From a virus, in IMG/VR virus record IMGVR_UViG_3300032163_000678, positions 1 to 34,321 of that record: a stretch of DNA of 34,321 bases. One strand, written 5' to 3'. How positions within the stretch are numbered: position 1 is the stretch's first letter; each line of letters begins with the position of its first letter. Below, piece after piece: positions 874 through 14,475 of this stretch. A program made the translations under genes and the position numbers. The notes below the pieces were generated by a model. That model did no database searches. It was not told where the DNA came from and saw only the letters and a program-made list of their open reading frames with translations.

Positions 874-1284
874 CTACTTGCGCAGCACCAGCCAGCCGAT
901 GGCGAGCGCCGCCGCTCCGGCGATCAGCCAGGTCGTGCGGTTGGTCGAGGCGACCTCCGGGTTCATCGCCGCTTCGTTCGGAGCGATCACCATCGGGCTG
1001 TCGGGCATCGGCGGGGGAGGGATCGGAGCGCTCCCGCTCATCACGATGCGCTGGCAGTCCGCGAGCACTTCCTTGGAAGCGGCCGTTTTCAGGCTCGCGC
1101 GCTTCGCGTTGACGCACATCCGGAACGCCGCGGCTTGCGTCTCGGTCATCGCTCGCGTGTACCCCATGGTCCAGTAAATGTCGTGCAGCACCGGAGGCGC
1201 CGTCGCGCCGAGCCCGGCAAAGCCCACCGACGGGGGACCGAGCGGAGGCAGTCTGCGGGGCGTTGCGTAGGTGACGTAGGCCAT
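874..1284 (-). CDS. Small tail-anchored late protein, begins MAYV
   Basis: 136 residues. ATG at 1284 is chosen because GGAAGGA lies about 9 bases upstream; an in-frame extension to 1365 lacks a good site. The N-terminus has the FAGLG motif shared by many neighbours. A middle stretch has two Cys (in FRMCVNAKR and LADCQRIV) that could form a disulfide, then a proline-rich linker. The C-terminus is one hydrophobic helix (TTWLIAGAAALAIGWLVL) ending in RK. I infer a single-pass membrane protein of the virion or entry machinery. It is the last gene of the late operon: its stop is followed by a run of nine C (minus strand) and the terminator. No family recognised. Confidence 0.75.
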   Translation of the reverse strand: MAYVTYATPRRLPPLGPPSVGFAGLGATAPPVLHDIYWTMGYTRAMTETQAAAFRMCVNAKRASLKTAASKEVLADCQRIVMSGSAPIPPPPMPDSPMVIAPNEAAMNPEVASTNRTTWLIAGAAALAIGWLVLRK

Positions 1285-1331
1285 GGGGGTGAGTCCTTCC
1301 AAGCAATCGTGCGCGTACCAGCCAGGAGTCG

Positions 1332-2597
1332 TCAACTTTTCCGCTTGCGACGAGTCAGCCACCACGTGGCTCCGACCGCGGCGACCGCGGTACCAGCCCA
1401 GAGCAGCGTGCGCGAGGACTCCCGCGCGGCGGCCTGTTTAGCGGCTAGCGCGGCGGCCTGTTTAGCGGCTAGCGCCGCAGCGTACGCCACCAGGTCCGCA
1501 TTTCGCTTTGCTTCGACCGCCTTCGCGTACGCCACCAGGTCGGCGTTCTGCTGCGCGCACGTGGGCTTCTTGCCGCAGCTCGCCAGCTTCGCGCAGAACG
1601 CCTTCCATACCTCCGGCGATACGTTCTTCGGGACTCCGGATGTGCTGCAAAGGGCCCCGACCAGGGCTGTCTCGTTCTCCCAGCATCCTTTCGGCGCAAG
1701 CTGCGCGCACGTCATCGCCGAAGCGAGATAGATGATTTGGTTTGGTGTAGGGATCCTACCTTTGACCCCTCGAACAACAGCAGCGGTGATCACCGCCATC
1801 GATGCCCGCTCAAGCTCATCGATCCACCAAAACGACTGCTCTTTGAACCCCTTCTCGATCTCGACCTTCTTCGCCAGGTCGTTGACGCCGATCCTCGCGA
1901 TGTACGGTGGCAGGTAATCGAGGTGCCACTCGAACTTCCCCTGCACCGGCATACCAGGAGTACCTGAGTCGCACAGGTAGCTGACGTAGTCGCGACCCTG
2001 CAGACGCCAGGCAGTGTACTCGTCCAGAGGCAGACCAGCGTCTCGGAGTTGCGACAACGCCCACTCGATGTCGTACACGCCCGGAGCGATCTCGCTCAGA
2101 GATGTCACCATGGACGCCAGTACGCTCTTCAGCGCGGTGAAGCGCATGCAGTCCAGCGTCTGGTTCGCGTAGTAGAGGTCCCAGTACTCCTTCTGGAGAG
2201 GAGTCATCTGCGCGTAGCTCGCCACGTACTCCGCTGCGCTGATTCTGATCGGCGGCTTCGGCTTCTTTCCGCCGAACAATTTCACGAAGAATTTTCCGAC
2301 CGACTTGATCCCATCTTTGACGGGGCCGTACAGCTCGCCTGCGAGCCAGGCACAGGCTGGAGCAGCAGCAGCGCCGACACCGGTAGCCGCGCATCCAGCG
2401 GCTGCGCCGGCCTGCGCCGCCGACTTCATGTACTTGTCCGTCTCGGCCTCGATCGTCTTCTCGGCGGCCTTGAGGGGGTCCTTCAACTCTTTCTTGTAAG
2501 AGTTGTACGACTCCTTTGTTGCCTGGAAATCCGCATCCGGAGCGGAAGCGGCGTCAGCGCCAAGCGCGGACAGTCTGTGGACCGAAACGTACGCCAC
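1332..2597 (-). CDS. Tail-anchored late protein with AYAAA repeats
   Basis: 421 residues, GTG start with GGGTGAG just upstream, 4 bases after the previous stop. It begins MAYV like two other late genes. Residues ~70-100 are Ala/Gly-rich and hydrophobic, followed by a Lys-rich stretch (KFFVKLFGGKKPK). The middle is globular; residues ~300-360 hold seven to eight Cys. It then has repeats of the type NADLVAYAAALAAKQ and a final membrane helix (TLLWAGTAVAAVGATWWL) with tail TRRKRKS. The Cys block plus AYAAA repeats also occur in the gene at 11186-12328, so the two are partial paralogs. Role unknown; inferred membrane-anchored virion or entry protein whose repeats may form a helical stalk. Confidence 0.8.
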   Translation of the reverse strand: MAYVSVHRLSALGADAASAPDADFQATKESYNSYKKELKDPLKAAEKTIEAETDKYMKSAAQAGAAAGCAATGVGAAAAPACAWLAGELYGPVKDGIKSVGKFFVKLFGGKKPKPPIRISAAEYVASYAQMTPLQKEYWDLYYANQTLDCMRFTALKSVLASMVTSLSEIAPGVYDIEWALSQLRDAGLPLDEYTAWRLQGRDYVSYLCDSGTPGMPVQGKFEWHLDYLPPYIARIGVNDLAKKVEIEKGFKEQSFWWIDELERASMAVITAAVVRGVKGRIPTPNQIIYLASAMTCAQLAPKGCWENETALVGALCSTSGVPKNVSPEVWKAFCAKLASCGKKPTCAQQNADLVAYAKAVEAKRNADLVAYAAALAAKQAAALAAKQAAARESSRTLLWAGTAVAAVGATWWLTRRKRKS

Positions 2598-2601
2598 GCG
2601 C

Positions 2602-3210
2602 TCACCCTACGATTCCGTCTTTTTCGACGTCCAGGATCTCTCCCGTGATGATGCAGCACGGGCCTTCGGTCTCCGTGTAGACGAACAGGAACGTCTTGCC
2701 CGTGCCCGGATGCACACCGGCGCCCAGCATCGCCTTCGCGATGTCGACCTGGTAGTGCACGGGCTCGCCCCGACAGTAGAGCGTCGCCTGGATGCCGAGG
2801 ATCGGCGCCAGCTCGGCGAAGCGCTTCGGGAGCGGCCCGTCCAGGTCGACGACCTCGCCGCGGTCCACCGCCAGCCTGTCTTCGGTCTGATGGTAGTCGC
2901 GCAGGAACGAATCGCGCACCAGGAGCTGCTGCGGCCCCTCGGCGCGGTGCTTGTAGTCGATGAAGTGGTCGCGGCGCTTCTGCCACTTCTCGCTGGCGTA
3001 CATCACGGCGTTGCACTCACCCACGCGCCGCATCGTGTGCGGCCAGTTCCAGCGAAGATCGGTCTCCTTCTCGATTGGGCGGTCCATGAACGCCTCGCGG
3101 ATCCGCTTCGCGGACTCGAACGAGCCGTCATCGTGCGTCGGGGCGACCACCCCTGTCACGCGGGAGTGACCGGAATGGCCCCGGTTCGGGACGTAGTCGT
3201 ACCGCCTCAT
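2602..3210 (-). CDS. Late-operon protein of unknown function, 202 aa
   Basis: ATG at 3210 overlaps the upstream stop (ATGA). The protein is soluble-looking, mixed alpha/beta, with no signal peptide or membrane helix, unlike most neighbours. The C-terminal half carries a run that looks like a compact beta domain (VHYQVDIAKAMLG, then GTGKTFLFVYTE and CCIITGEIL). The GTGKT string resembles a P-loop but lacks the normal preceding spacing and a Walker B, so I do not call it an ATPase. Function unknown; its position suggests a structural or assembly role. Confidence 0.75.
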   Translation of the reverse strand: MRRYDYVPNRGHSGHSRVTGVVAPTHDDGSFESAKRIREAFMDRPIEKETDLRWNWPHTMRRVGECNAVMYASEKWQKRRDHFIDYKHRAEGPQQLLVRDSFLRDYHQTEDRLAVDRGEVVDLDGPLPKRFAELAPILGIQATLYCRGEPVHYQVDIAKAMLGAGVHPGTGKTFLFVYTETEGPCCIITGEILDVEKDGIVG

Positions 3211-3629
3211 GCGGACCCCGTCCGGCTCTGCCACCAGCGCCAGCCGAGCGCATAGAGAGGGACGAGCACCGCGCCGCGCGCGGCGTACGTCTGCACGCGC
3301 TTGCCACGGATGAGCGCGAGCCCCGCGCCCGCGACAGCGCCCACGCCCAAGGCGGTCACCAGCCCGAACGGCGTCGTCGCGTCGAACGTGTAGCCGAGCC
3401 CGGTCAGTCCCGCTCGTGACATCGGCAAGATCGAGCCGCGCGCGATCGGTCCTGAGCCCACGGAGCGGAGAGCGCCCCCGGGCGTGCGGCCGATGTCGGT
3501 GCTCGCGACGCCCAGCGAAGTCCCCACGCCGAGCTTGGGCGTGGGCAGATCGTCGCCCATGCCGAGCCGTTCGGCTGACTCGAAATAGTCGTAGCCGCCC
3601 TTGTCCGGTCGCCAGCGGGAGTAAATCAC
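3207..3629 (-). CDS. Late membrane protein with GMGD motif
   Basis: 140 residues, GTG start overlapping the preceding stop (GTGA). The N-terminal half contains ERLGMGDDLP, the G[LIM]G[DE] motif shared across this operon, then a Gly/Ser-rich region. The C-terminal half has two hydrophobic stretches, LVTALGVGAVAGAGLALI and VLVPLYALGWRWW, separated by a basic segment; the end (QSRTGSA) is less basic than its relatives. Predicted membrane protein of unknown role. Confidence 0.72.
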   Translation of the reverse strand: MIYSRWRPDKGGYDYFESAERLGMGDDLPTPKLGVGTSLGVASTDIGRTPGGALRSVGSGPIARGSILPMSRAGLTGLGYTFDATTPFGLVTALGVGAVAGAGLALIRGKRVQTYAARGAVLVPLYALGWRWWQSRTGSA

Positions 3630-3694
3630 GACTTCTTAGTCCACCTTCCAACCACGATGCCTGCGCCAAACAGTACCACGGTCCAGAGAATCAT
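3626..3694 (-). CDS. 22-residue single-helix membrane peptide
   Basis: ATG at 3694, CAGGTG about 9 bases upstream. The product is almost only one membrane helix (ILWTVVLFGAGIVVG) followed by RWTKKS, so it has the same anchor-plus-basic-tail ending as its larger neighbours. Its stop overlaps the next GTG (GTGA), which supports translation. A longer in-frame extension to 3859 would run through the GGGC repeat and into the glycosyltransferase gene and is unlikely. Confidence 0.5.
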   Translation of the reverse strand: MILWTVVLFGAGIVVGRWTKKS

Positions 3695-3769
3695 CGCCGT
3701 TCGCACCTGAGATTGATCGATGCTGCCGAGCGCCACGACCAGCTGCCCTCCCGGGGCTTGTGAGGGAGA

Positions 3770-3793
3770 GGGCGGGCGGGCGGGCGGGCGGGC
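3770..3793 (+). repeat. Six tandem GGGC units, G-quadruplex candidate
   Basis: Six perfect GGGC units lie in the only sizeable gap (about 105 bases) inside the late operon, between the glycosyltransferase stop and the 22-residue peptide. A further GGG at 3764-3766 adds a seventh G-run. The plus strand (template for the late genes) could fold into a quadruplex; the RNA would carry the C-rich complement. It may be a slippage-prone repeat or a pause site. Confidence 0.6.
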
Positions 3794-3800
3794 GCAAGAC

Positions 3801-4460
3801 TCATGCCGTGCATGAGCCGTTCCTCGCCAGGCACACCTTTGCGGAGTGCACCTGTGCAAACATCTTGACGAACTGCGCCGTCCCCTTCCACCACCCGAAC
3901 TTCGCGTGCTTGTCGTAGATGTTCACGCCGGTCAGCGGGACGAGGCAGACGGTCGAGCCGAGCTTTCCGGCCGTGTGGTTGATCGCCACCTCGATGCTGT
4001 AGCCATTCCAGCAGTCCCACGGGACCTGCGCCAGCACGTCGCGGCGCACGACACGCTCGCCCGTGATGATCGGGGTCGCCCACTGCAGCAGGTTCCGCAT
4101 CGCGCCGTAATCACGGAGCCCGCAGACCATGCCGTATCCCTGACGCGCTACGGAACAGAGCAGGCGAACGTGCTCGGGGCCGAAGTCTTTCAGATCCGCA
4201 TCGACGAACAGGATCGCGTCCGCAGACGGACAGGAGTCGACCGCGGCCTTCATCGCCTGGCCCTTCCCCCGGTTGGGGGACAACCGAAGCACCTCCGCGC
4301 CCGCACGCTCTGCGACGAGCGCGGTGCCGTCAGTAGAACCGTCGTCTACTACCAGCGTGCGGCGGACCGCGCCCGATGCCAGCACCGCGCGCACCACTGC
4401 CTGGATGCGCGGTGCCTCGTTGTGAGCGGGGATGATCGCGTCGATGATCATGGGGCTCAC
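3801..4460 (-). CDS. Family 2-type glycosyltransferase
   Basis: 219 residues. N-terminal GT-A fold motifs are in order: AIIPAHNEA (residues 8-16), VVDDGSTDGT (37-46), RGKGQAMKAA (64-73) and the metal-binding DAD in ILFVDADL (87-89). These match nucleotide-sugar-dependent family 2 transferases of the dolichol-phosphate-mannose-synthase type. No membrane helix is present, so it is probably cytoplasmic or peripheral. Substrate unknown; it could glycosylate virion proteins, modified bases or a host surface polymer. GTG start overlaps the preceding stop (GTGA); an ATG three codons in is possible. Unusual to find embedded in a tight block of tail-anchored virion-like genes. Confidence 0.85.
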   Translation of the reverse strand: MSPMIIDAIIPAHNEAPRIQAVVRAVLASGAVRRTLVVDDGSTDGTALVAERAGAEVLRLSPNRGKGQAMKAAVDSCPSADAILFVDADLKDFGPEHVRLLCSVARQGYGMVCGLRDYGAMRNLLQWATPIITGERVVRRDVLAQVPWDCWNGYSIEVAINHTAGKLGSTVCLVPLTGVNIYDKHAKFGWWKGTAQFVKMFAQVHSAKVCLARNGSCTA

Positions 4461-4690
4461 CCGCCGGTCGGCCGCTTCTTCTTCCAGTCCCGGTACGACC
4501 GCGCCGCGGCCCAGAGCCCGTACCCGGCGAGCGTGGCGTACAGCCAGCGCGGGATCTGGTTTCCGGCCGTGGTCAGATCGCGCCGGAAGTGGCTCGGCTC
4601 CTCACCAGTCGCCACGAACTGGGCGATTGGGAGCGGGAGCATCGACACCGGGGGAAGTGTCGGGACGGTGGCGGGGAGCGTGGCGGCCAT
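4457..4690 (-). CDS. Small tail-anchored protein, 77 aa
   Basis: ATG at 4690, 7 bases after the previous stop; the frame runs further upstream but overlaps the neighbour. A Pro/Thr-rich N-terminal half is followed by one hydrophobic segment (WLYATLAGYGLWAAA) and a basic tail (RDWKKKRPTGG). Same general plan as the other late membrane proteins, without the GLGD motif. Function unknown. Confidence 0.7.
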   Translation of the reverse strand: MAATLPATVPTLPPVSMLPLPIAQFVATGEEPSHFRRDLTTAGNQIPRWLYATLAGYGLWAAARSYRDWKKKRPTGG

Positions 4691-4697
4691 GGGGGGC

Positions 4698-4985
4698 TCA
4701 CTTCCGGAGATGATCGCCCCAGAGCCCGAGCGCGATCGACCCCAGGATGAACACAACGATCATGGTCTTCTGCCCGCCGGTCATCGCGGCCTCACTCACC
4801 TCCGGGCCGCGGAGCGCGCCGGACTGGTAGTACCCCGCGCGGTACGGCGCGCGGTAGTCGTGCACGGAGTGGTAGCTCCGTCCGCGGGGCCAGTGCGTGG
4901 ACACGTCCCCGATGCCCGCGAAGCTAATGTTCGCGGTGTCGAACGGGGCACGAAAGTGAGCGGTGTCGGTGTAGATGCGGTTCAT
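4698..4985 (-). CDS. Small tail-anchored protein with GIGD motif, 95 aa
   Basis: ATG at 4985 overlaps the preceding stop (ATGA). The N-terminal half is Tyr/His/Arg-rich and contains FAGIGDVST. The C-terminus is a single membrane helix (MIVVFILGSIALGLWG) ending DHLRK. Inferred single-pass virion or envelope protein; no family recognised. Confidence 0.75.
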   Translation of the reverse strand: MNRIYTDTAHFRAPFDTANISFAGIGDVSTHWPRGRSYHSVHDYRAPYRAGYYQSGALRGPEVSEAAMTGGQKTMIVVFILGSIALGLWGDHLRK

Positions 4986-5203
4986 TCGGACAGCACTCCA
5001 ATCGCGTCATCGACCTGTGCAGCGAACTTCTTGGTCAGCACGCCCACGCCGTGGAGGTAGGACGTGTCCCACTCTTTCCACGCATCCATGATGTCCTCGG
5101 CGTCTTTCCGGGACTGCTCGGCAGCGCTGCGCAGGCTGACGATCGCCTCACGGCAATCGGTCGCCGCGATGGCGAGGATCTCTTCTGCCTGGTCGCGCGT
5201 CAT
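4982..5203 (-). CDS. Small helical protein, 73 aa
   Basis: ATG at 5203 overlaps the stop of the large repeat protein (ATGA). The product is hydrophilic and predicted to be nearly all helix, with an Ala/Glu-rich first half and a Trp pair (AWKEWDTS). No membrane helix or signal. Possibly a partner or chaperone of the flanking tail-anchored proteins. A longer frame here is a shadow of the upstream gene. Confidence 0.65.
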   Translation of the reverse strand: MTRDQAEEILAIAATDCREAIVSLRSAAEQSRKDAEDIMDAWKEWDTSYLHGVGVLTKKFAAQVDDAIGVLSE

Positions 5204-6903
5204 CCGATGAGGCCCTTCTTCTTCGCGTACCATACCCCGCCCACCGCAGCGGCGGCCAGTAACCCGACACCGAGAGCGCCCATGCCGGCCTGTCTCACCG
5301 GGGGAAGCGGCTGCGGCGAAGCCACCGGGCCCGCTTTCTTCGTGGGCGGCGTCATCTTCGGGCACGAGAGCGCGACGGCATAGGCGTTCGGGCACGAGCG
5401 CGTCGTCCCGGGATCGAACCGGCCGCCGAGCGCGAACAGCGCGCCGCAGGTCGCGGCGTCCCACGTGCCGGTGATCGGGATCGGCTTGTAGCCGGCGCGG
5501 TCGAGCGCCTGGTTCAGCTGGTCCTGGATCAGCATGACCTCGTCCCAGGTCTTGCCGTAGTCGATCACGCACTCGCCCGAGGCATTCAGCGGGGGCAGGC
5601 GCGGATCGCGCTTCGGCGGGGTGACTGCCGGGGGCTTCACCACCACCGGTGTCGCGGCGGGGAGCTTCTCGGGCAGCACCAGGACGATCTTCGAGCAGGC
5701 GGACTTGATCGTGGTGGCCACGAGCAGGCTCGCCAGCGCGGCCGACACCTTGAGCCGGCCCGCGTTCACGTCGACGAGCGTCGCAGACGCGGCGCCGCAG
5801 GTGAGCCCGGTCAGCTTCCCGTCTTCCGGTACCGGCTTGAATCGCCCGGGCACCAGGACCTCGCCGTTCAGGAGCTTCTGGAGCAGCAGCACGTCGGTCG
5901 CCGTCGGGGCCGCGACCGCGGCGGGGGCGACCGTGATCTTGCTCGGGGCCGTCCAGGGGTAGAGCGGATCGCAACCGATCGGCAGCGCGGCCTTGTTGAG
6001 CAGGGCCGCGAGCGGCGCGCTCACCGCGAGCTTGCCGGCCTTGATGTTGCTGATCACGTAGTTCGCGGCGCCGCAGGTCGTCTTGCTGAGCTTGCCGTCA
6101 GTGGGCAGCAGACCCATCCCGCCCGGGCCGAGCACCTCCGCGTTCAGGCCCGCCTGGATGGCCAGAACATCAGTCGTAGTCAGCACCGCTGGGGGCGAGA
6201 CGGGAGGCGGAGCAGACTGTGCCGCGATGATTGCGCGGCAGGCAGTCACCGCCGCCGGGAAGTACTGCGCAAACACGAGCGCAAAATCATCGGCCGGTTC
6301 CGGGTCGGACGGAGCCGCCACGTACGAGCGCTGGAATGCGTCGAGGCCCACGCAAGTGCCCCGGTCGAACACGCCGGTCTCGGCGACCTTCGGCAGGCCG
6401 CGGGCGGCCAGCTCGGCATTCAGCATCTGCTGCCAGCGGCGCGCTTCCGCGCTCGGGACGCCCACCGGAAACGGTAGCGTGGTCGCCGGCTGAGGTGGCG
6501 GGCAGGTCGGCACGACGGGGGCCTTGGTGACGTAGCCGCAGCCCGCGGCGAAGTTCTTGCCGTACGCGGCCAGTAGGCTGGTCAGCTCGGGGCCGATCTT
6601 GCCCTTCGATGCCCACGCGAGCGCGCCGCACACGCTCGGCCCGATCAGACCGTCGACGCCGAGCTTCGTCGTGCACCCGGCGCGCACCAGCTCGACGTTC
6701 ATCAGCTCCTGGAGCTTCTTGACCCGCGCGTCGACCCACCACTGGCCCGGCACGCCCGCGGGCAGGCTCCCGCCCGTGCTCGCGGTAGGCGTGCTGGTCC
6801 GGTCCCACGTGATCACGGGTTCCAGGTTGTCCAGCCACGCAGTCAGATCGGTGTCCCCCAGGGGGCGACCGCGCTTGCTGCCGTTGAAGACGCCGAGGCT
6901 CAT
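5200..6903 (-). CDS. Tail-anchored protein with five peptidoglycan-binding-like repeats
   Basis: 567 residues, ATG one base after the previous stop. It contains about five copies (roughly residues 58-125, 150-225, 243-310, 335-400, 455-520) of a unit like LQxxLNxELxxxG, then DGxLxxxTCGA. Order and spacing match the PG_binding_1 family (three-helix peptidoglycan-binding domain), but the usual T..A becomes TCGA and each unit gains a second Cys about 30-40 residues later, suggesting one disulfide per domain. Pro-rich linkers separate units. The end is QAGM, a membrane helix (LGVGLLAAAAVGGVWY) and AKKKGLIG. I infer an anchored protein that contacts the host wall during entry. A GLGD-like LGDTD lies near the N-terminus. 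Confidence 0.8.
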   Translation of the reverse strand: MSLGVFNGSKRGRPLGDTDLTAWLDNLEPVITWDRTSTPTASTGGSLPAGVPGQWWVDARVKKLQELMNVELVRAGCTTKLGVDGLIGPSVCGALAWASKGKIGPELTSLLAAYGKNFAAGCGYVTKAPVVPTCPPPQPATTLPFPVGVPSAEARRWQQMLNAELAARGLPKVAETGVFDRGTCVGLDAFQRSYVAAPSDPEPADDFALVFAQYFPAAVTACRAIIAAQSAPPPVSPPAVLTTTDVLAIQAGLNAEVLGPGGMGLLPTDGKLSKTTCGAANYVISNIKAGKLAVSAPLAALLNKAALPIGCDPLYPWTAPSKITVAPAAVAAPTATDVLLLQKLLNGEVLVPGRFKPVPEDGKLTGLTCGAASATLVDVNAGRLKVSAALASLLVATTIKSACSKIVLVLPEKLPAATPVVVKPPAVTPPKRDPRLPPLNASGECVIDYGKTWDEVMLIQDQLNQALDRAGYKPIPITGTWDAATCGALFALGGRFDPGTTRSCPNAYAVALSCPKMTPPTKKAGPVASPQPLPPVRQAGMGALGVGLLAAAAVGGVWYAKKKGLIG

Positions 6904-6904
6904 G

Positions 6905-7384
6905 TCAGTGCTTCTTCCTGGCCAGGAGCGCCTGCGTCAGACCGCGCACGTTGAGCAGGTACGCGAGGCCGCCGACGACCGTGATACCGATCCCCCACTT
7001 CGCCCACGTGGGCAACTGGTTCAAGAACGAATCATCGGTCTCCGGAAACTCGCCCTTCGAGGTGATGCGCTTGGTCTTGCCGAACATTTCTTCGGTGGTG
7101 AGCCCGGTGCGCTTGACGGTGTCCGCGGCCTGCTGTTCTGCAGCCGTTGTGGCGTTGGCCGCCAGGAAGGCGTTGCGCCTGTTGCGAGCGGCGTCGTACG
7201 TGTTCGTACTGTAGTTGCGGTCGTACCAGCTGAGCGCGTCGTACCAGCGAAGCCAGTCGTTGTGGAGCTTCTCCGCCGCGCTCGTCTTGAACGGCGTGTT
7301 CATCATGAAGCGATTGATCGCGTCCATGTCCTCGCCCTGGTCTCCCAGCGCGAGCCCAGCAGCTCCGGTCGCAACGTAGGCCAT
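6905..7384 (-). CDS. Tail-anchored helical protein, begins MAYV, 159 aa
   Basis: ATG at 7384, 3 bases after the preceding stop. N-terminus MAYVATGAAGLALGDQ carries a variant of the shared GLGD motif. The body is helical, rich in Asn/Arg/Trp/Tyr (WLRWYDALSWYDR, then YDAARNRRNAFLAANA). The C-terminus has one membrane helix (WGIGITVVGGLAYLLNV) and ends in LLARKKH. Likely single-pass membrane protein of the late set; function unknown. Confidence 0.75.
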   Translation of the reverse strand: MAYVATGAAGLALGDQGEDMDAINRFMMNTPFKTSAAEKLHNDWLRWYDALSWYDRNYSTNTYDAARNRRNAFLAANATTAAEQQAADTVKRTGLTTEEMFGKTKRITSKGEFPETDDSFLNQLPTWAKWGIGITVVGGLAYLLNVRGLTQALLARKKH

Positions 7385-7387
7385 GAC

Positions 7388-8176
7388 TCAGATCCACTTC
7401 GCTTTCTTGGCGACGAAGAACCCGACGACCGCGAGCACGCCCCCGCCGATCGCGTACTTGGTCGAGGCGCTCATGCCGGCCTGGTATTCGACCGGCGGCG
7501 GCACGACGGGGCCCACCGGGGGGACGTACGGCGCGACTGATCCGCCCCCGCCGCCCGCACCGACCTTGACCGGGGCCGACAGCGTCTTGCCGGCGCACAC
7601 GCCCTGGTACGTGGTCGCCATCACCGCGAGGTTTGCGTCGATGGCCGCCTGGGCCGTGGTGCCGGCAGCGAGCCCGCGGCCCGTCGCCTTGTACCAGGCG
7701 ATGGCGCCGCAGGTCTTGCCGCCGAGCGCGCCATCAGGCGAGCCCAGCTCCTGGTAGCCAGCGGCCTTGAGCACACGATTCAGGTAAGCCTGCAGCTCCC
7801 TCACTCGGGAGTCGTCCTTCTTCAGGCCAGGCACGGTGGGCTGTGCCGGCGGCGCGGCCGTGGTTGCGTCGCGCACCAGCTCAGTCGTGTTCACGAACGC
7901 GGGCAGCGAGTAGTCATCCCCGAGCCCTGCCTGCGGACCGAACACACCGCCGCCGTTGCGCGGAGCGCCGAACACGCCGCGGTTCGTCTGCCACAGCAAC
8001 TCACCGAGCCCGTGCAGGCCGGGATTCCCGTCGTTCAGGTCTGACGGCTTGAACACCGACTGCACCGACTGCTGCCACGGGTATCCGAAGACGGGGCGCG
8101 TCCAGATGCCACCATGGAACCGAGTCGGCCACGGGTGGACGTGCGTGTCGTAGGGGTTGGGTACTCCGAAGGCCAT
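7388..8176 (-). CDS. Tail-anchored protein with one peptidoglycan-binding-like domain
   Basis: 262 residues, ATG with GAGAAAGAG upstream. The N-terminal ~100 residues are aromatic and Gly-rich and hold both GLGE and AGLGDDY. Residues ~125-190 contain one PG_binding_1-like unit (VRELQAYLNRVLKAAGY, then DGALGGKTCGAIAWY) with the same TCGA signature and a second Cys (QGVCAGK) as the five-repeat neighbour, so the two are related. A Gly/Pro-rich linker leads to QAGMS, a membrane helix (YAIGGGVLAVVGFFV) and AKKAKWI. Inferred wall-contacting anchored protein. Confidence 0.8.
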   Translation of the reverse strand: MAFGVPNPYDTHVHPWPTRFHGGIWTRPVFGYPWQQSVQSVFKPSDLNDGNPGLHGLGELLWQTNRGVFGAPRNGGGVFGPQAGLGDDYSLPAFVNTTELVRDATTAAPPAQPTVPGLKKDDSRVRELQAYLNRVLKAAGYQELGSPDGALGGKTCGAIAWYKATGRGLAAGTTAQAAIDANLAVMATTYQGVCAGKTLSAPVKVGAGGGGGSVAPYVPPVGPVVPPPVEYQAGMSASTKYAIGGGVLAVVGFFVAKKAKWI

Positions 8177-8193
8177 GATGTCTCTTTCTCGAT

Positions 8194-9975
8194 TCAGTGC
8201 GCTGCCGCGAGCAGGTCATCCAGATCCCCGTCGTCGATCATCCGGGCGAGCGAGGTGTACGCCTCGTAGTAGTCCGGCTCGTTCGCCATCCACGCTCCGT
8301 GCGCGCGAGTTTTGCACCAGATGGCCGGGTTCTTGTAGGTGAGCACCTTGGCCACGAAGTCGGCGCCGAGTCGGCGTTCCACGCCCGCGAGGTCGAGCAT
8401 CTCGCGCCAGTTGGGCTCGTGCCCGGAGCCGGCCCACTCGGCGGATTGACCGGCCGCATCGTGCGAGCGGGACACGTGACCGACCTGCACAAGCTCATCC
8501 CCACGCTGCTCGAAGATGATGCCCGACGTGTAGCCCTGGACGTGAGCGTCGTCGCGGATTGCCTCAAGCGCCGCTTGCTTCGTCGGGTACCCGCGCGTTG
8601 GCCCGATCGTCGTGTGCGTTCCGCCACGACCCACGCGGTCGACGTAGAACTGCCCACTGGTCCCGTGGACGTGCACGGCGTAGTCGTTCGCGGATGCGCT
8701 GGACTCATGATAGATGCCGCGCGCGTTCTGGCGATGCGCAGACCGCTCGATCGCGCCGTAGCCCTCGACGCCGCGCACCGACGACACGGCCCTGGCTTCC
8801 GGGAACTCCGCCATCACGGCGCGGATCTGCCCGCTCGTAGTGCGGCTCGGAGATTCGATCTTGTCGAGCACCACCACCTGGCCACCGATGCGGCTCGCGA
8901 TCGGGAGCCCGTAGGACCAGACCGTCTGCCCGTCCGTGTGGCACGTGTCCTCCCGGTGCGGGCGCCCCGAGCGGAATGCGCTGATCACCTTGGTAATGTT
9001 CTGTCGCGCGTTCGCTTCCATGTGACCGTGGTCCTTGTCGCCGATCCCAAACGAAAAATTCCCGTCGAGGCTGAGGTGCGGGTTTGGTTCCAGACCGGAC
9101 TCTGCCTGCGCGTACGCCTCATCGTACTCGCGCATCGCCGCTTCGTAGATCCGGCGACCAGCCATGTACTCGTCATCACCGATTCGCTGCGCGCGGTAGT
9201 CAGCCTGCACCGCGGTGAACGCTCGGATGGCGGCGCCCGACTTCTCCATCGCCGCGTCGTACGCGCTGCCGTTCGGGCGCATGGCGGCGATGTTACGCTG
9301 CTCCTCGTCGTACTCACGGTCCCACTGCTCCGACCAATCGGACGGCAGAGTCATCGCCCGACTGGCGCGCTCGTAGAACAGCGCCTTCTTTTCTTCCCGC
9401 GATCGGGCCAGAGTCGGCCTGTAGTGCTCACTCCGTATCCTTCGGCCGCGCGCGTTCGCCACCATGCCGCTCATCCCTCTGTGCTTCGCTCGGTACGCCA
9501 GGTAAGCGCTCGGCTCCGACGCCGCCCCTTCGGCCGCTGACTTGTACCCGTGGTAGTAGTCCGTCCCGTCTTCGCGCTTCGTGACCGGCGGCTTCACGCC
9601 CCGCTCGCTCACGCAAAGCTGGCGCGTACGACCAGCGGAGCGGTCGGTGCCTCCAGCAGCGAACCCCTCCGCGAACGAGCCCTGCCCGTGGCCCCGGTTG
9701 CCGGCATGCCGACCGTTGAGTGAGTGGTGGGACGCGAGCCCCGCGTGCATCTGCGCGTCATCGACGAGCGCGGCGAGTGCCGGACCATCCCACTGGTCGG
9801 CGTCCCCGTTCACGTAGTCGATGTCGATCAGGTCGCCGTTTCGCGCATCGAAGCCGAAGCTCACGCCTTCGAGCCCGTGCAGGTTGGATGCCGGCCACTG
9901 GTCGTTGAAGTCGGAGATGTCCCTCTCGTCGACCTCGACGGTGACCTCGCTCGGGCTCTGATGGGCGACGTGCAC
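8194..9975 (-). CDS. Large soluble late protein, multidomain, 593 aa
   Basis: GTG start with GGGGG 5 bases upstream, 2 bases past the previous TAA. No membrane helix. The N-terminal ~60 residues (DFNDQWPASNL, GFDARNGDLIDIDY) resemble a small domain seen in many phage and plasmid proteins. A central segment (QNITKVISAFRSG, TDGQTVWSYGLPIA) resembles the family I remember as DUF8033, unchecked. Then comes a short repeat-type domain (YPTKQAALEAIRDDA) like those with a GG..Y.TK..AL pattern. A GIGD occurs at ~residue 310. Function unknown; it is flanked by membrane proteins on both sides. Confidence 0.75.
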   Translation of the reverse strand: MHVAHQSPSEVTVEVDERDISDFNDQWPASNLHGLEGVSFGFDARNGDLIDIDYVNGDADQWDGPALAALVDDAQMHAGLASHHSLNGRHAGNRGHGQGSFAEGFAAGGTDRSAGRTRQLCVSERGVKPPVTKREDGTDYYHGYKSAAEGAASEPSAYLAYRAKHRGMSGMVANARGRRIRSEHYRPTLARSREEKKALFYERASRAMTLPSDWSEQWDREYDEEQRNIAAMRPNGSAYDAAMEKSGAAIRAFTAVQADYRAQRIGDDEYMAGRRIYEAAMREYDEAYAQAESGLEPNPHLSLDGNFSFGIGDKDHGHMEANARQNITKVISAFRSGRPHREDTCHTDGQTVWSYGLPIASRIGGQVVVLDKIESPSRTTSGQIRAVMAEFPEARAVSSVRGVEGYGAIERSAHRQNARGIYHESSASANDYAVHVHGTSGQFYVDRVGRGGTHTTIGPTRGYPTKQAALEAIRDDAHVQGYTSGIIFEQRGDELVQVGHVSRSHDAAGQSAEWAGSGHEPNWREMLDLAGVERRLGADFVAKVLTYKNPAIWCKTRAHGAWMANEPDYYEAYTSLARMIDDGDLDDLLAAAH

Positions 9976-9977
9976 GA

Positions 9978-10490
9978 TTACCCCCGTCGCTTTTGGCGCG
10001 CGTAGAGCGCCTGCGCGCCGAGACCGAGGCTGCCCAGAAAGAGACTCGCCGCCGCGCCCGTCCAGGCGTAGGCGCGCTCATCCTTCGCGCTCGGGGCCAG
10101 GGCAGTGCCGACCAGGTAGCCGGCACCGCCGCGCAGCACCAGGCCGACCAGGATTGCGGTCATGTTGACGGTCGCCATCACCGGGCCGACTTCGCCCAGG
10201 CGCTTGCGGCTCAGCACGTCCGCCGTGTCCCCGAGCGCGCCCGCGACGGGGCTCAAGCTCGCGGCCATCTTCCAGGCCGAGCCCGAGCGGCGCTGCGGAG
10301 TCCAGGCATGCGCGGGGGCGCCGCCGCGGCCGAAGTAGCCGCCGAGCCCGCCGGTGGGCTCCCCGCGCTGCACCGGCATGGGAAGCGGGACCGGAGGGGC
10401 AGACGGGAGCCCGGTGTGCTGCGGCAACGCTACAGCAGACAGATCCCCGCCACCCTGACCGAAGTACTCTCCGAGTCCGTCTGGGCTCAT
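9978..10490 (-). CDS. Two-helix late membrane protein with GLGEYFG repeats
   Basis: 170 residues. ATG at 10490 overlaps the previous stop (TGATG) with GGAGGAAG just upstream; a GTG one codon earlier is possible. The N-terminus repeats a motif: DGLGEYFGQGGG and, after a Pro-rich spacer, GGLGGYFGRGGA. The C-terminal half has two hydrophobic helices (VNMTAILVGLVLRGGAGYLV and AASLFLGSLGLGAQALY) and ends ARQKRRG. The GLGE motif and basic tail link it to its neighbours. Function unknown. Confidence 0.75.
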   Translation of the reverse strand: MSPDGLGEYFGQGGGDLSAVALPQHTGLPSAPPVPLPMPVQRGEPTGGLGGYFGRGGAPAHAWTPQRRSGSAWKMAASLSPVAGALGDTADVLSRKRLGEVGPVMATVNMTAILVGLVLRGGAGYLVGTALAPSAKDERAYAWTGAAASLFLGSLGLGAQALYARQKRRG

Positions 10491-11179
10491 CACTTCCTCC
10501 GCTTGCGCGTGAGCGCGTACAGGATCCCTCCGGCTGCGCCCACGGCTACCCCGGTGGCCAGGAGCTTCATCCAGGGGCTCGGTGCCGCCGGCACGGGCGC
10601 GGCGGTCGCATCCCCGAAGCCGCTGATCGCCTGCGGGTTCTGCATGATGTTGACCGTGGACCGGCCGCGCATCAGGCCCGTGCTGACGTCGCTCACGATG
10701 GGGGAGACGGGGAACATGCCGCGCTCGATGAACGCGACCTGTGCGCTCGTGTCGAACGCGACGGGGCTGTTCGGTACCGGGATGATCTGGCGGCCCGTCG
10801 TGACGTCGCGGACCTCGGACGGCTGGAACATGCGCTCGCGCGCGAGGTACCCGGGCAGGCTGCGGGCCTGCGCGAACACTCCCGAGTCGGGATAGATGTT
10901 CGGCGGGCTACCGGGGGGATCGAAGATCCCATCGTTCTGCACGTCGTCCATCTCGGCCATGACGCGCAGCTCGTTCAGGGCCCAGCCCTGCTCAGCGCCC
11001 TCGTCCTGGACCTCACCGATGCCGGCCAGGTGGCGCCCGTGGGCGCTGTCGATCTGACCCGCGTAGTACGGAGCGGTGCCCGACGAGTAGCGCGTGTCGC
11101 TCGATCGGTTCACGTCCGACCACATGGACGGGAGATTCCCCGAACGGGGCTGCGTCGGATAGACGGGGTAGTGGGGCAT
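10490..11179 (-). CDS. Tail-anchored late protein with GIGE motif, 229 aa
   Basis: ATG at 11179, 6 bases after the previous stop, with GGCTGAAG nearby. The N-terminus is rich in Pro/Tyr/Ser; LAGIGEVQDE carries the shared motif. The middle has a loosely repeated beta segment (DVTTGRQIIPVPNS and DVSTGLMRGRS). The end is a membrane helix (LLATGVAVGAAGGILYAL) plus TRKRRK. Predicted type of single-pass membrane protein with its bulk on one side; function unknown. Confidence 0.75.
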   Translation of the reverse strand: MPHYPVYPTQPRSGNLPSMWSDVNRSSDTRYSSGTAPYYAGQIDSAHGRHLAGIGEVQDEGAEQGWALNELRVMAEMDDVQNDGIFDPPGSPPNIYPDSGVFAQARSLPGYLARERMFQPSEVRDVTTGRQIIPVPNSPVAFDTSAQVAFIERGMFPVSPIVSDVSTGLMRGRSTVNIMQNPQAISGFGDATAAPVPAAPSPWMKLLATGVAVGAAGGILYALTRKRRK

Positions 11180-11185
11180 GGGGCT

Positions 11186-12328
11186 TCAGCCTACTCCCGC
11201 CCGAGCGGCCTGTCGCTTTTTGCGCCCGAACAGGAACCACCCGCCGACCGCCAGCGCCCCGCCGAGCAGGAGCATGCTGCCCGTGCTCATGCCCGCGGAG
11301 GGGACCTGCACCGGGGCCGTCACCTCGACCGGGATGTCCGGGGGCGGCGGCGGCGGCGGCGGGGCGGGGGGCACGCCCGGGGGAAGCGAGACCGTCACCT
11401 GGGGCGGCGGGGGCGGCGGCGGGGGCGGCGTGCCCTGCGCCTGAGATGCCTTCACGGCCGCGGCGTATGCGGCCAGCTGGGCGGCCTTCTGCGCGTTCGC
11501 GACGGCGACCGCAGCGGCGTACGCCGTCAGCTCCGCGTTGCGCTTCTGGTCCGTCGCAGCAGCGGCGTACGCCCGCAGATCAGCGGCATACTTGTCCTGC
11601 TGCGCCTTGACCGCGGCGGCGTAGGCAGCGAGCCCCTGCCAGTCGATCGGCTTAACCACTGCCTTGAGGATCGGGGGGCGCTGCCCCGCCTGCTGGGCCT
11701 TGAGCGCGGCAGCGTAGGCGATCAGATCCGCGTTGCGCTTTTGCTCCGCCAGCGCGGCAGCGTAAGCGCGCAGATCGGCCGCGGCCTGGTCGCCGCAGAT
11801 CGGCGCCTTCTGGAACGCCGTCCACCACGCCGGGTCTTTCATCCACATCCAGCACTGGGCGTTCTGGGCCCGGTCTGTGCCGGTCTTGTAGCCGTTCTTC
11901 TGGCAGTAGGTGCGCGTGGCGGCCTGCGCCGGAGTCGCGCAGGTGGGCACCGTCAGATGCGTCGACGTGGCGCACACCGGCAGATCGAGCAGGTGCCACA
12001 TCGCGTTGTACGAGCAGTCCTTCGCGTAGTTCGTCCAGAGCGGGTTGGGGCCCGTCAGGCAATTTTTGATATTCGATGCCTGCGCCATGTTGAGGCAGCT
12101 CGTGCAGTCGGGCAGCGATTCGACCCAGCAGGCGTTCGCTCCCTCGAAACGCCAGCTCGCTGGCTTGCCCGGGAGATCGGGCCACGCGCCCAGACCGCGC
12201 AGCACCGTGGGCTTGCAGGCGGCGTGCGCAAACGCACGCTCCGCGGGAGTCACGCACGCAGGCCAGCGGCTCACGTCACCCGATGCGCGGCGGTCAAACT
12301 CGTCTCCCAGTCCAGTGCTCACGTACAT
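11186..12328 (-). CDS. Tail-anchored Cys-rich protein with AYAAA repeats and polyproline
   Basis: 380 residues. ATG at 12328 with GAGAAAG upstream. N-terminus MYVSTGLGDEF carries the shared motif. Residues ~25-165 hold about 12 Cys and many Trp, likely a disulfide-bonded domain. Then six copies of an AYAAA-type helical repeat (ADLRAYAAALAEQKRN is typical), two polyproline runs, SAGMS, a membrane helix (MLLLGGALAVGGWFLF) and GRKKRQ. The last Cys, repeat and anchor modules also occur at 1332-2597. I infer an anchored stalk presenting a Cys-rich head; the Cys content suggests folding in an oxidising place or in the virion. Confidence 0.8.
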   Translation of the reverse strand: MYVSTGLGDEFDRRASGDVSRWPACVTPAERAFAHAACKPTVLRGLGAWPDLPGKPASWRFEGANACWVESLPDCTSCLNMAQASNIKNCLTGPNPLWTNYAKDCSYNAMWHLLDLPVCATSTHLTVPTCATPAQAATRTYCQKNGYKTGTDRAQNAQCWMWMKDPAWWTAFQKAPICGDQAAADLRAYAAALAEQKRNADLIAYAAALKAQQAGQRPPILKAVVKPIDWQGLAAYAAAVKAQQDKYAADLRAYAAAATDQKRNAELTAYAAAVAVANAQKAAQLAAYAAAVKASQAQGTPPPPPPPPPQVTVSLPPGVPPAPPPPPPPPDIPVEVTAPVQVPSAGMSTGSMLLLGGALAVGGWFLFGRKKRQAARAGVG

Positions 12329-12344
12329 GGCGGCGGTCTTTCTC

Positions 12345-12887
12345 TCAGTCGAGCTTCCAGATTTTGTAGGTCGTCACCCGGCGCAGCATCTTCCCCTCGT
12401 CGGTGCCCGCCACCGGGTCGAGCACGATCCAGCGGCCAGCCTTGGTCTCGTACGCGCGGGCGAACACGTGACTGTACTGCCCGGGCTTCCCAAACCCGAC
12501 CGTCACCAGATCCGATTCGCGGCCGACCTGGCGGACCATGGTGGCGATGATACCGCTGATGTCATCGCAGTCAGCGGTAGCGCGTCCGTGCTGCATGATC
12601 TGCTCGGCCAGCCGCTGGGGGTCACTGACCCACTCGGTGGACAGAGGGTCGTTCTTGTAGCGCACGTGCTCGGCCACGAAGTTCCGGATTGCGATCAGCT
12701 CCGACAGGTAGTCCTTGCCCTGGAGGTAGCGGACGCAGTGCTCGGTGAGCTTGTAGACCACGAGCGAGCGCTCGCCGCGCTGGCCCTTGATCATCTCCCG
12801 CATGGTGCCGATGGTCGTGTGCGCGCCCGCAAACCGCCCGAGACGGTACGGCTCGACGATAGAGCTGGGGAGGGCGGCGAGGGTCAT
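12345..12887 (-). CDS. Transglutaminase-fold cysteine protein
   Basis: 180 residues. ATG at 12887, 4 bases after the previous stop; a longer in-frame start would overlap the fibre gene. The pattern DCDDISGI (Cys107), YSHVFARAY (His140) and VLDPVAG (Asp157) matches the Cys-His-Asp triad of the transglutaminase-like superfamily, which includes proteases and cross-linking enzymes and is seen in phage structural operons. No signal peptide or anchor. It might cross-link or cleave virion proteins or peptidoglycan peptides; the choice cannot be made from sequence. Confidence 0.8.
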   Translation of the reverse strand: MTLAALPSSIVEPYRLGRFAGAHTTIGTMREMIKGQRGERSLVVYKLTEHCVRYLQGKDYLSELIAIRNFVAEHVRYKNDPLSTEWVSDPQRLAEQIMQHGRATADCDDISGIIATMVRQVGRESDLVTVGFGKPGQYSHVFARAYETKAGRWIVLDPVAGTDEGKMLRRVTTYKIWKLD

Positions 12888-12891
12888 GATT

Positions 12892-14055
12892 TCACGGCAC
12901 CACGTCGCTCGTGATGACCTTCGCACCGGCGTTGGTCAGCACCGTGCCGTGGATCTTGATCCAGTAGTTGGAGTAGGAATCCAGCTCGAACGGGAACGCG
13001 AGCGCATTGTTCCACGTGGCCGCGGCCACGTCGGAGTCGACGATCTGCACGCGCCCCGTGGTCACCCATGCGCCACCGGACGAAACCAGCGTGTCCTTCA
13101 GGAACAGACCGTCTGCCGTGACGTCCGTGCTGCTGGCCTTGCACCCTTGCAGCGACAGGAACTGACACTGGACGACGGTGTCGTCCAGGTTTGCCCCGAT
13201 GAACACGCAGGAGTACAGCGGAGCCACCACCGACTGGACCGCGTTCTCCTGGATCCCGAAATTGGAATCGTTCTGGTAGGGCGACGCAGCCATCAGCGAG
13301 CCAGTATTCGTCGGAGCCGTAACGACCACTCCGCTCGGAATATCGTATCTACCCTGCAACTCCACGAGGCAGCTGTCGCCAAGCGTGAGTACTCCGCCCT
13401 GACTGAAGCTCACCAAACTCTTAATTTTGGCGTTATCTCCGAGCAATGTTGCGCCGGAAATAGCGACCGCGCAAAGCGCGACCAGCTCGGCATTGGCACC
13501 AAGATCGAGCGTGCCCATGACCAGCGCGCCGCTGACCACGTACAGAATTCCCGCGGGAGCTACCGTGATGCCCGTAACTATGGAGAGCGAGGAAATCAGG
13601 ACGATGGGCGCGCCCGCTGGCACCACGACACTCTCGGCGTACACATACGCCACCAGCTGCAGCGCCAGCGGCACGCCGGGGTTTGCGGTGATCGCTCCCT
13701 GGATCGTGCTGTACGGGGCGCCGACCGATCCGTCCTGCTGCGCGAGCGGGACAGCCGTGAGCGAGTCAACGATCTTCACGAGCGACCAGGGGGGGATCGC
13801 AGCGCCCGCGCCGCTGAGCTTCAAAATCCAGCGACCAGGACCCGTGTCAGGAGCGATGATGGACGTGCCGTTGGGCGCCGCCGTGCTCGTCCGGTCGAGC
13901 TGATAGCCGCCCTGGTTCGCGACGCAATACACGAACGCCCCGTCCGCCAGGGTGGTCGTGTTGATCCCGGCGACCGACGCGCCCGGGTTGCCAGTGGTGA
14001 GCGTAAGCCGGGGGGCCACGAGCATGCTGCCGAGCGAGGCATTCTGGAAACTCAT
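12892..14055 (-). CDS. Beta-rich fibre or spike-like protein, 387 aa
   Basis: ATG at 14055, AGGA about 11 bases upstream. No membrane helix or signal. The chain is full of short beta strands with Val/Ile/Thr/Ser and small turns (GDSCLVELQG, GTLDLGANAEL), a style typical of right-handed beta-helix phage spikes and pectate-lyase-like folds. The N-terminal ~100 residues (DGAFVYCVANQGGYQL, GPGRWILKL) look like the head-binding part of tail fibres. Probably the host receptor-binding protein, by inference. Bases ~13.3-13.65 kb look less GC-rich and use AT-ending codons more than neighbours, consistent with exchange of the host-range region. Confidence 0.7.
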   Translation of the reverse strand: MSFQNASLGSMLVAPRLTLTTGNPGASVAGINTTTLADGAFVYCVANQGGYQLDRTSTAAPNGTSIIAPDTGPGRWILKLSGAGAAIPPWSLVKIVDSLTAVPLAQQDGSVGAPYSTIQGAITANPGVPLALQLVAYVYAESVVVPAGAPIVLISSLSIVTGITVAPAGILYVVSGALVMGTLDLGANAELVALCAVAISGATLLGDNAKIKSLVSFSQGGVLTLGDSCLVELQGRYDIPSGVVVTAPTNTGSLMAASPYQNDSNFGIQENAVQSVVAPLYSCVFIGANLDDTVVQCQFLSLQGCKASSTDVTADGLFLKDTLVSSGGAWVTTGRVQIVDSDVAAATWNNALAFPFELDSYSNYWIKIHGTVLTNAGAKVITSDVVP

Positions 14056-14067
14056 GAGAGACTGGTC

Positions 14068-14475
14068 CTATCGCTTGAAATTCGCGGCGAGCGCGACCAC
14101 GGTGAGGGTGCATGCGACGGCGACCCACATGCGGGTCGTTTCCGTCTGGGACATCCCGGGCTCAGCATCTGCCTCAGGAGCGACGATCGCGCCGGTGCCG
14201 AGAAGCACGCGCGGGCGCCCGACGATCCTGGGGCCGCCCAGGATCACGCAGTTGCCGTTCTGGTCGATGAGGTCGCAGCTGGGCTCGATGTAGACGTCCG
14301 TGCCCGGGTATCCCCAGGGCCCGTAGCCTCCGCCCGCGAAGTACGCGCCGCCGGGGCCGTAGATCGCCGGTCTCCGGCCGCCGCCGCCACCGTGATGCCC
14401 GCCGTGGTGACCGCCGCCGCCACCACCGCCGTGGTGACCGCCGCTGCCGTGACCGCCGCCGAGTACGCCGAGCAT
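14068..14475 (-). CDS. His/Gly-rich protein with C-terminal anchor
   Basis: 135 residues. The first ~33 residues are almost only Gly and His (runs such as GGHHGG), then RRP and an aromatic Gly-rich stretch (GGYGPWGYPG), a segment with two Cys (SCDLIDQNGNC), and a C-terminal helix (MWVAVACTLTVVALAA) ending NFKR. Upstream of the helix stands PGMS, like the AGMS of three relatives. The His-rich head could bind metal ions or self-assemble; this is inference. It is the first gene of the late operon. The -10 box ends only 7 bases before the ATG and no ribosome site fits in between, so the message is probably leaderless. Confidence 0.75.
   Translation of the reverse strand: MLGVLGGGHGSGGHHGGGGGGGHHGGHHGGGGGRRPAIYGPGGAYFAGGGYGPWGYPGTDVYIEPSCDLIDQNGNCVILGGPRIVGRPRVLLGTGAIVAPEADAEPGMSQTETTRMWVAVACTLTVVALAANFKR

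Follow-up and report, generated by a model that had tools for sequence, protein, structure and literature searches.

The stretch of DNA analyzed here (the window: 34,321 nucleotides, taking up the whole of a 34-kb IMG/VR record) is best explained, with a probability of about 0.72, as an incomplete piece of the larger genome of a phage from an undescribed lineage, whose tailless icosahedral particle would consist of a presumed internal membrane enclosed by a shell of two predicted single-jelly-roll capsid proteins, and positions 874–14475 as its membrane-protein operon. A preliminary description of the window had proposed an undescribed membrane-bearing virion, which is the best-supported reading in light of a conserved capsid pair in relatives, the lack of a tailed-phage module in Pfam scans, and a transglutaminase-like enzyme shared with the membrane-containing phage SSIP-1.

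Genomic context

Searches with Pfam and PHROGs found almost nothing among the window proteins beyond replication and enzyme genes; no capsid, portal, terminase, or tail tube was recognized, as previously described. The window lacks capsid genes because the contig stops about 2 kb before their expected place. The operon lies on the minus strand and is cut by the left end of the window; the anchored-protein cluster runs on past position 1, and the boundaries 874–14475 are those of the window, not biological ones. Relatives of 124.6 and 179.4 kb (G001 and G002) are syntenic with the operon, which in both extends into two adjacent capsid candidates (MCP1 and MCP2). Directly upstream of this pair lies the counterpart of the gene truncated at the window's edge (1..681), and the window's own genome presumably carries capsid genes too.

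C-terminal anchors

Under a strict rule (a single C-terminal hydrophobic segment and a net-positive tail), 7 of the 18 genes in 874–14475 follow one anchor plan, versus 1 of 31 in the rest of the window (Fisher p = 0.002). A loose rule, tolerating a second hydrophobic stretch, adds three genes with the same ending, for a total of 10/18. The earlier count of at least ten products ending in a helix plus a Lys/Arg tail thus holds under the loose rule (10) but not under the strict one (7). Genes are marked below by rule; weaker candidates also include the short open reading frame 3626–3859. "Scan" denotes the segment/tail scan, and percentages are amino acid identities.

1..681, minus: Arg/Lys-rich basic repeat protein, 3'-truncated at the contig edge; 45% identical to G001 45813–46589, also G002 16327–18567
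874..1365, minus: C-terminal TM and RK tail (strict; scan)
1332..2597, minus: protein of 421 aa with YAAAVKA-type helical repeats, then a C-terminal TM and TRRKRKS (loose; sequence, scan)
2602..3150, minus: conserved late protein lacking a TM, start codon revised from 3669; 58% in G001; family at 17/25 capsid-linked loci
3207..3629, minus: membrane protein with conserved N-terminus (weaker candidate); 73% over 78 aa in G001; family at 15/25 capsid-linked loci
3801..4451, minus: family 2 glycosyltransferase (PF00535, E = 1.4e-17); no G001 match, outside the conserved late set
4457..4690, minus: small late protein, hydrophobic C-terminal stretch (weaker candidate); 47% in G001
4698..4985, minus: C-terminal TM and DHLRK (strict; scan); 62% in G001
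5200..6903, minus: 567-aa protein, repeated peptidoglycan-binding-like units (PF01471, E = 4e-4, slightly short of the cut-off), AGMG, C-terminal TM and KKKG tail (loose); syntenic G001 homologue 37395–39047
6905..7384, minus: C-terminal TM and RKKH (strict; G001 comparison, scan)
7388..8176, minus: peptidoglycan-binding-like unit resembling those of 5200–6903, AGMS, C-terminal TM and KKAKWI (strict); cross-matches G001 37419–37616
8194..9975, minus: large soluble late protein with conserved blocks (72% block in G001); no match in the Pfam scan
9978..10493, minus: two-TM late protein, GLGEYF motifs, basic tail (loose; G001 comparison, scan)
10490..11179, minus: C-terminal TM and TRKRRK (strict); 63% over the aligned length; the query that led to the 179-kb relative
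11186..12328, minus: C-terminal TM and RKKR tail, helical repeats, N-terminal GLGD (strict; G001 comparison, scan)
12345..12887, minus: transglutaminase-like cysteine enzyme, C107/H140/D157 (PF01841, 4.2e-7)
12892..14055, minus: candidate receptor-binding spike, first ~80 aa conserved, remainder beta-rich and variable; three G002 proteins alike in residues 1–87 only
14068..14475, minus: Gly/His-rich protein, C-terminal TM and KR (strict; scan)
14540..17212, minus: coiled-coil protein of 890 aa, conserved and encoded immediately upstream of the operon, a possible scaffold; 46% over its full length in G001
19514..20032, minus: RuvC-like resolvase; G001 homologue, RuvC family matches in the G001 core and G002 sets
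22938..24335, minus: DnaB replicative helicase (PF03796, 1.6e-84)
24374..25282, minus: DnaC-like helicase loader (phrog_50, 2.9e-6)

Anchors cluster in the relatives as well: in G001, 14 of 34 in the late cluster versus 4/159 elsewhere, and in G002, 14 of 37 versus 2/257, so that 7–14 C-terminally anchored proteins are found per late cluster across the window and these two genomes. By comparison, the tailed-phage controls Mx8 and λ gave 0/85 and 1/61, and the membrane phages SSIP-1, P23-77, and PRD1 gave 5/57 (strict), 1/36, and 1/30, respectively. The late cluster of G001 that matches the operon also encodes peptidoglycan-binding and M15 peptidase domains.

The anchored proteins are modular mosaics with common stalks and anchors, which suggests one common location. 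Another common element is a short tag, G-hydrophobic-G-[D/E/A], where docking or maturation might take place; the conserved transglutaminase-like enzyme is a candidate for processing it. A sortase- or GlyGly-CTERM-like sorting signal was considered and rejected: AG[MF][GS], a pattern picked after looking at the sequences, precedes the helix in just 9 of 58 anchored proteins, and AG[MF][GS] plus helix is read as a duplicated anchor module.

Candidate capsid proteins

The capsid pair is the best conserved of 62 comparable proteins, at 93% and 89% versus a median of 64%. It occurs in about 35 contigs and is adjacent in 25 of 25 loci, or 35 of 35 with further loci included; MCP2 is present in one copy per contig (21/21 contigs). 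Twelve capsid-pair contigs have circular-looking ends and span 112–182 kb, and one, of 298 kb, is linear. MAG bins bearing the capsid gene pointed to no consistent host, as the four bins came from four phyla. The capsid genes are known from relatives, outside the window, which counts against the best explanation.

The two candidates are 252 and 317 aa long, the latter with a 58-residue helix, and their AlphaFold models, of modest confidence (pLDDT 63 and 68), form a beta-sandwich. In Foldseek searches, MCP2 matched HHIV-2 best (E 0.023) and P23-77 VP17 as well, while MCP1 matched PBCV-1, an iridovirus, and SPV1 (6oj0, prob 0.89). Nearly all PDB matches are jelly-roll capsids, but weak ones (lowest E 0.016, TM no higher than about 0.4); the best BFVD match of a candidate (E = 9e-4, prob 1.00) has 211 residues, as many as SSIP-1 gp46, and may be that protein (UniProt I1ZBH9). 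On these models, MCP1 and MCP2 are predicted to be single-jelly-roll capsid proteins. A likeness to SSIP-1 gp45/gp46 noticed by eye was dropped because no sequence link from the candidates to either SSIP-1 or P23-77 emerged from hhalign, from hmmsearch, or from a shuffled PSSM test.

A transglutaminase-like enzyme shared with SSIP-1

SSIP-1, an isolated tailless phage that contains a membrane, has a circular dsDNA genome some 44 kb long. Its gp34, annotated as a structural, virion protein, is a homologue of the enzyme encoded at 12345..12887 (profile comparison, 7.6e-8), and among 50,697 phage records, SSIP-1 alone (two records) matched this enzyme. The Cys-His-Asp triad is invariant throughout the family, including gp34, and the gene is single-copy in 21 of 21 large relative contigs. 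Beyond gp34, the late-cluster and capsid families have no significant similarity to SSIP-1 proteins; in tblastn searches of SSIP-1 proteins against G001 and G002, gp34 gave the only capsid-cluster match, alongside a short gp15 match (4.6e-5) and others above 0.008.

SSIP-1 resembles the new lineage in its circular genome and in several proteins that end in one TM and a Lys-containing tail; it has two capsid protein types (PMC6356626), as proposed here. The new genomes are 2.5–4 times larger (up to 6.8 times for the linear contig); if particle diameter grows with the cube root of genome length, SSIP-1's 100 nm would translate into icosahedra of about 140–160 nm. SSIP-1 differs in having far fewer anchored proteins, a structural protein with a RecA-like P-loop (gp40) whose counterpart was not found in the new lineage, and no DnaB/DnaC/RuvC set noted.

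The circular genomes, with their tyrosine recombinase, RecT, and YqaJ genes, would also suit a large plasmid or non-viral mobile element carrying an envelope-protein operon. This reading is scarcely credible for elements classed as viral in IMG/VR, with a virus-like capsid pair, a gp34 homologue, and a capsid protein unmatched in 72,556 plasmids.

Tailed-phage hallmarks and the packaging ATPase

Direct Pfam scans, which detected the λ and Mx8 terminase controls, found no terminase, portal, or capsid family among 70 core proteins of G001 or among 43 of the proteins over 215 aa in the circular relative G002. These scans replaced a search of the relatives with the terminase profile phrog_2, a weak negative since it also missed its Mx8 and λ controls. 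Portal family PF04860 was matched in 0/22, and portal families in the Pfam scans matched the λ control only, the Mx8 portal itself being missed; HK97 capsid family PF05065 gave 0/23, a weak negative as the Mx8 control was missed too.

That the virus is instead a tailed phage whose structural genes have diverged strongly, and whose anchored proteins assemble into a complex in the host envelope, is improbable. Genomes of 112–298 kb are typical of tailed phages, and profiles can miss divergent terminases, as phrog_2 did. Against it stand the negative scans of the circular relative and the shared core, with working controls, and the likeness of the best-conserved proteins, as modeled, to jelly rolls. 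Furthermore, the only Walker-A open reading frames in G001 and G002 encode DnaB, DnaC-like, ChlI/ComM-like, and MoxR-like proteins, with no packaging ATPase among them.

Nor did the FtsK-HerA profile PF01580 give any match over the cut-off in 21 relatives, although it recovered only a scrap of the P23-77 control and missed PRD1; of the few sub-threshold matches checked, two were the Walker-A of DnaB and one lay, judged by eye, in an SNF2-type helicase. The FtsK/A32-like ATPase that the first description proposed seeking was therefore not found by either scan, and its tectivirus- or corticovirus-like affinity appears misplaced, the proposed type being that of two single jelly rolls (SSIP-1, sphaerolipovirus-like). 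Numerous small membrane proteins and Foldseek matches that include double-jelly-roll capsids, e.g., PBCV-1 and D13, would fit a phage with a double-jelly-roll capsid and an FtsK/A32 ATPase. Such a phage is nonetheless very improbable: neither of the best-conserved candidates, at 252 and 317 aa, is long enough to hold two barrels, the two distinct capsid genes are neighbors, and the FtsK profile was negative, if weakly so.

A model for assembly and genome entry

We infer that the anchored set probably sits in the virion membrane and carries DNA through the bacterial wall. Made without signal peptides, these proteins would insert via the C-terminal helix, which would leave their soluble N-terminal parts on the cytoplasmic side. 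Once budding has brought the membrane beneath the capsid, the N-terminal parts would face the shell and the Lys/Arg tails the lumen, where the DNA goes. Lumen-facing Lys/Arg tails conflict with the positive-inside rule. During entry, by analogy with PRD1, the vesicle could be reshaped into a conduit across the envelope, kept in the wall by exposed peptidoglycan-binding units, while virion peptidases and glycosidases from the same cluster would open the wall. An entry channel, earlier offered as an alternative to a membrane virion, fits too if these proteins fill both roles.

The same tailless virus might instead make most anchored proteins late, as non-virion factors for reshaping the membrane of the host, be it as an assembly platform or for lysis, egress, or the exclusion of superinfecting phages. 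Lysis-type enzymes in the cluster (M15 peptidase, endolysin-type families) and a glycosyltransferase inside the operon agree with this idea, which is unlikely in view of SSIP-1 gp34 and gp41, both annotated as structural and both bearing such anchors in their sequences, the interleaving of anchored genes with the capsid pair in relatives, and the shared stalks and anchors.

Relation to known viruses

The tailless phage proposed here resembles Helvetiavirae/Singelaviria (HHIV-2, SH1, P23-77), which have an internal membrane, genomes of 17–30 kb, and two adjacent single-jelly-roll capsid genes (putative in the new lineage), with the smaller gene first in P23-77 (VP16-VP17), as here. There is no sequence similarity, and Helvetiavirae have an FtsK-HerA ATPase, whereas none was recognized in the new lineage. 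Sulfolobus polyhedral virus 1 (Portogloboviridae), matched by the MCP1 structure, has a single capsid protein, an archaeal host, and a much smaller genome; it has no packaging ATPase (PMC8812541), and none was recognized in the new lineage. PRD1 (Tectiviridae) shares no genes with the lineage and differs in its double-jelly-roll capsid protein, 15-kb linear genome, and packaging ATPase P9. It serves as a working analogue by its membrane proteins, wall digestion, and tube: its virion membrane holds many small membrane proteins, and it has peptidoglycan-digesting virion enzymes and a DNA-delivery membrane tube (PMC3782422).

Implications

To our knowledge, the largest prokaryotic single-jelly-roll membrane phage has a 44-kb genome, and genomes over about 100 kb are found only in tailed phages and, among jelly-roll viruses, eukaryotic giant viruses. 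Prokaryotic double-jelly-roll membrane phages have genomes under 20 kb (PMC8812541). We found no account of tailless phages this large in the literature covered, mostly outside subscription journals. There is an even chance, in our estimate, that the lineage is a bacterial counterpart of the large tailless viruses: circular, 112–182 kb (perhaps to 298 kb), membrane-lined, with two jelly-roll proteins, a dozen or more modular anchored proteins, and no recognizable terminase or FtsK/HerA motor. Its existence would explain one class of "viral" contigs, large ones in which structural genes go unrecognized. If true, widespread tailless phages of 112–182 kb would break the known size rule and would offer a bacterial system for how jelly-roll shells reach giant size, how large genomes enter cells without a tail, and how they are packaged without a known motor.

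Genome organization and relatives

The window is an entire IMG/VR record of 34,321 bases without end repeats and is a fragment. Its minus-strand gene run extends from ~25.3 kb to the left edge and includes the following features:

22938-24335, minus strand: DnaB
between ~25.3 kb and the left edge, minus strand: DnaC-like loader
between ~25.3 kb and the left edge, minus strand: RuvC-like resolvase
14540-17212, minus strand: coiled-coil protein, followed by the late genes (874-14475)

Within the same window, a PTH2-type peptidyl-tRNA hydrolase gene (PF01981; window 20077-20424, G002 113603-113938) is phage-borne, and three neighboring tRNAs are predicted at 20462-20721 (minus strand), including a tRNA-Ile(AAT) and one with an odd 4-base anticodon; Rfam backs the middle one only.

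Two syntenic relatives were identified. A homologue of window 17750-18466, 55% identical, led to IMGVR_UViG_3300033233_000009 (G001, 124,597 bp), and searching with a 10490-11125 profile yielded IMGVR_UViG_3300012157_000001 (G002, 179,401 bp). Gene order in the window from 25.3 kb to position 1 largely matches that of G001 10.1-46.6 kb and that of G002 from 159.5 kb, across the origin, to 18.6 kb; the left end of the window thus falls inside the gene that in both relatives directly precedes a pair of proteins, 252 and 317 aa long. Positions 1-240 encode tandem Arg/Lys-rich, protamine-like DNA-binding repeats (KRRTVKRRRLSAN), the likely cause of the assembly stop. Twelve genomes of 111.6-182.4 kb are apparently circular and one linear contig reaches 297.7 kb; exact, assembly-style terminal overlaps of 120-132 bp occur in eight contigs and near-exact ones in three more, while that of G002 is 33 bp.

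A ComM/YifB-like (ChlI) AAA+ domain within the late operon is a separate gene in G001 (33813-35405), fused in G002 (3371-6553), and absent from the window. A VWA/metallopeptidase protein (G001 118508-121033), near a 75% conserved MoxR-type ATPase, has 841 aa versus 453 aa in G002, its insert having intein-like ends by eye (CFPPGT...VHNC). A DNA methyltransferase is encoded at the right end of the window (33147-34319); its G001 counterpart (100861-102231) is split by an ORF for an HNH endonuclease (101312-101932), as expected of a mobile intron or homing element.

A candidate capsid pair

Among 62 G001/G002 proteins that could be compared, the 252-aa and 317-aa proteins show the highest conservation (93% and 89%; median 64%). 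Profile scans with the former recovered 31 viral and four MAG contigs, with the 317-aa protein nearby in 35/35; a separate scan with the latter found 32 contigs, and the 317-aa protein is single-copy in 21/21 large contigs. The MAG bins are labelled Methanomicrobiales, Pseudomonadota, Planctomycetota, and Deltaproteobacteria, and these are probably mis-binned viral contigs. AlphaFold models both proteins as beta-sandwiches (pLDDT 68 and 63), the second with a 58-residue N-terminal helix. Their PDB matches are almost all jelly-roll virus capsids (HHIV-2 first, with P23-77 VP17 also listed, for the 317-aa protein; PBCV-1, iridovirus, and SPV1 for the 252-aa protein), at weak E-values (0.016-0.1), and the fold is therefore predicted. 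When predicted viral structures were searched, the best match of the 252-aa protein (E=9e-4, probability 1.00) was a 211-residue protein, as long as SSIP-1 gp46.

Packaging and the tailed-phage alternative

Pfam scans of the G001 core and of 43 G002 proteins revealed no tailed-phage head-tail module. An exhaustive Pfam listing that covered 70 G001 proteins of the shared core contained 15 families, and no tailed-phage structural family was among them. For 43 of the G002 proteins >215 aa, terminase, portal, and capsid families appeared, among the best 25 of 34 families, only in the controls spiked in (terminase and head proteins of lambda and Mx8); portal PF04860 scored 0/22. Whole-record searches with phrog_2 and PF05065 also gave no match, but they carry little weight because tailed-phage controls were missed too. 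No packaging ATPase was recognized, FtsK/A32-like ones included; SPV1 and FLiP likewise have none (PMC8812541).

C-terminally anchored late proteins

By a hydropathy rule, one C-terminal helix plus a net-positive tail ends 7/18 products in 874-14475 versus 1/31 elsewhere in the window (Fisher p=0.002). The 'at least ten' originally proposed is reached when a second hydrophobic stretch is tolerated (10/18), not under the strict count. The same rule gave 0/85 for Mx8 and 1/61 for lambda, and the clustering was independently repeated in the relatives (late cluster versus rest, 14/34 versus 4/159 and 14/37 versus 2/257). The anchored proteins are mosaics that combine peptidoglycan-binding-like units, helical stalks of the YAAAVK type, and an anchor that is shared in part. 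The peptidoglycan-binding-like units lie at:

window 5200-6903 and 7388-8176 (clearer in G001 49987 and 50638)

An M15 peptidase is also present in the G001 late cluster. The family of window 12892-14055, with three G002 copies (122948-123541, 161966-162652, 162719-163537), has just the first ~80 residues in common while the remainders differ, and looks like spikes with exchangeable tips.

The motif G-[LMF]-G-[DEAQN] (e.g., GLGEYF, GLGD) is found repeatedly in late proteins that otherwise show no relationship (window 9978-10493, 11186-12328, 7388-8176, and 10490-11179; G001 and G002 late clusters). It is enriched in late clusters of G001 (18/34 versus 7/159, Fisher p=6e-11), G002 (17/37 versus 14/257, p=1e-9), and the window (7/18 versus 1/34), although the pattern was picked after viewing and is therefore treated as a lead; it is possibly a docking or maturation cleavage site. 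SSIP-1 gp34, gp36, and gp37 carry it as well.

Relationship to SSIP-1 and proposed entry

In the known membrane phage SSIP-1, a T=49 capsid with two types of capsid protein encloses a membrane (PMC6356626, PMC6260650). Among 50,697 phage records, the transglutaminase-like protein encoded at 12345-12887 matched only SSIP-1 gp34, annotated structural, at E=3e-3; a three-sequence profile improves this to 7.6e-8. The Cys-His-Asp positions are invariant, and the gene occurs once in each of 21/21 large contigs. Several SSIP-1 late proteins likewise have a C-terminal helix followed by a tail that contains Lys.

In PRD1, the vesicle is converted into a tube as enzymes of the virion break down peptidoglycan (PMC3782422). 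By analogy, these domains of the anchored proteins would point toward the shell in the virion and toward the periplasm at entry, and under this topology the Lys/Arg tails would adjoin packaged DNA. The candidate capsid pair, the lack of a tailed-phage module in Pfam scans, and the gp34 link to SSIP-1 favor the undescribed membrane-bearing virion first suggested for this operon. We conclude with moderate confidence that the window derives from a previously undescribed variant of the two-jelly-roll membrane phages, one with a large genome.
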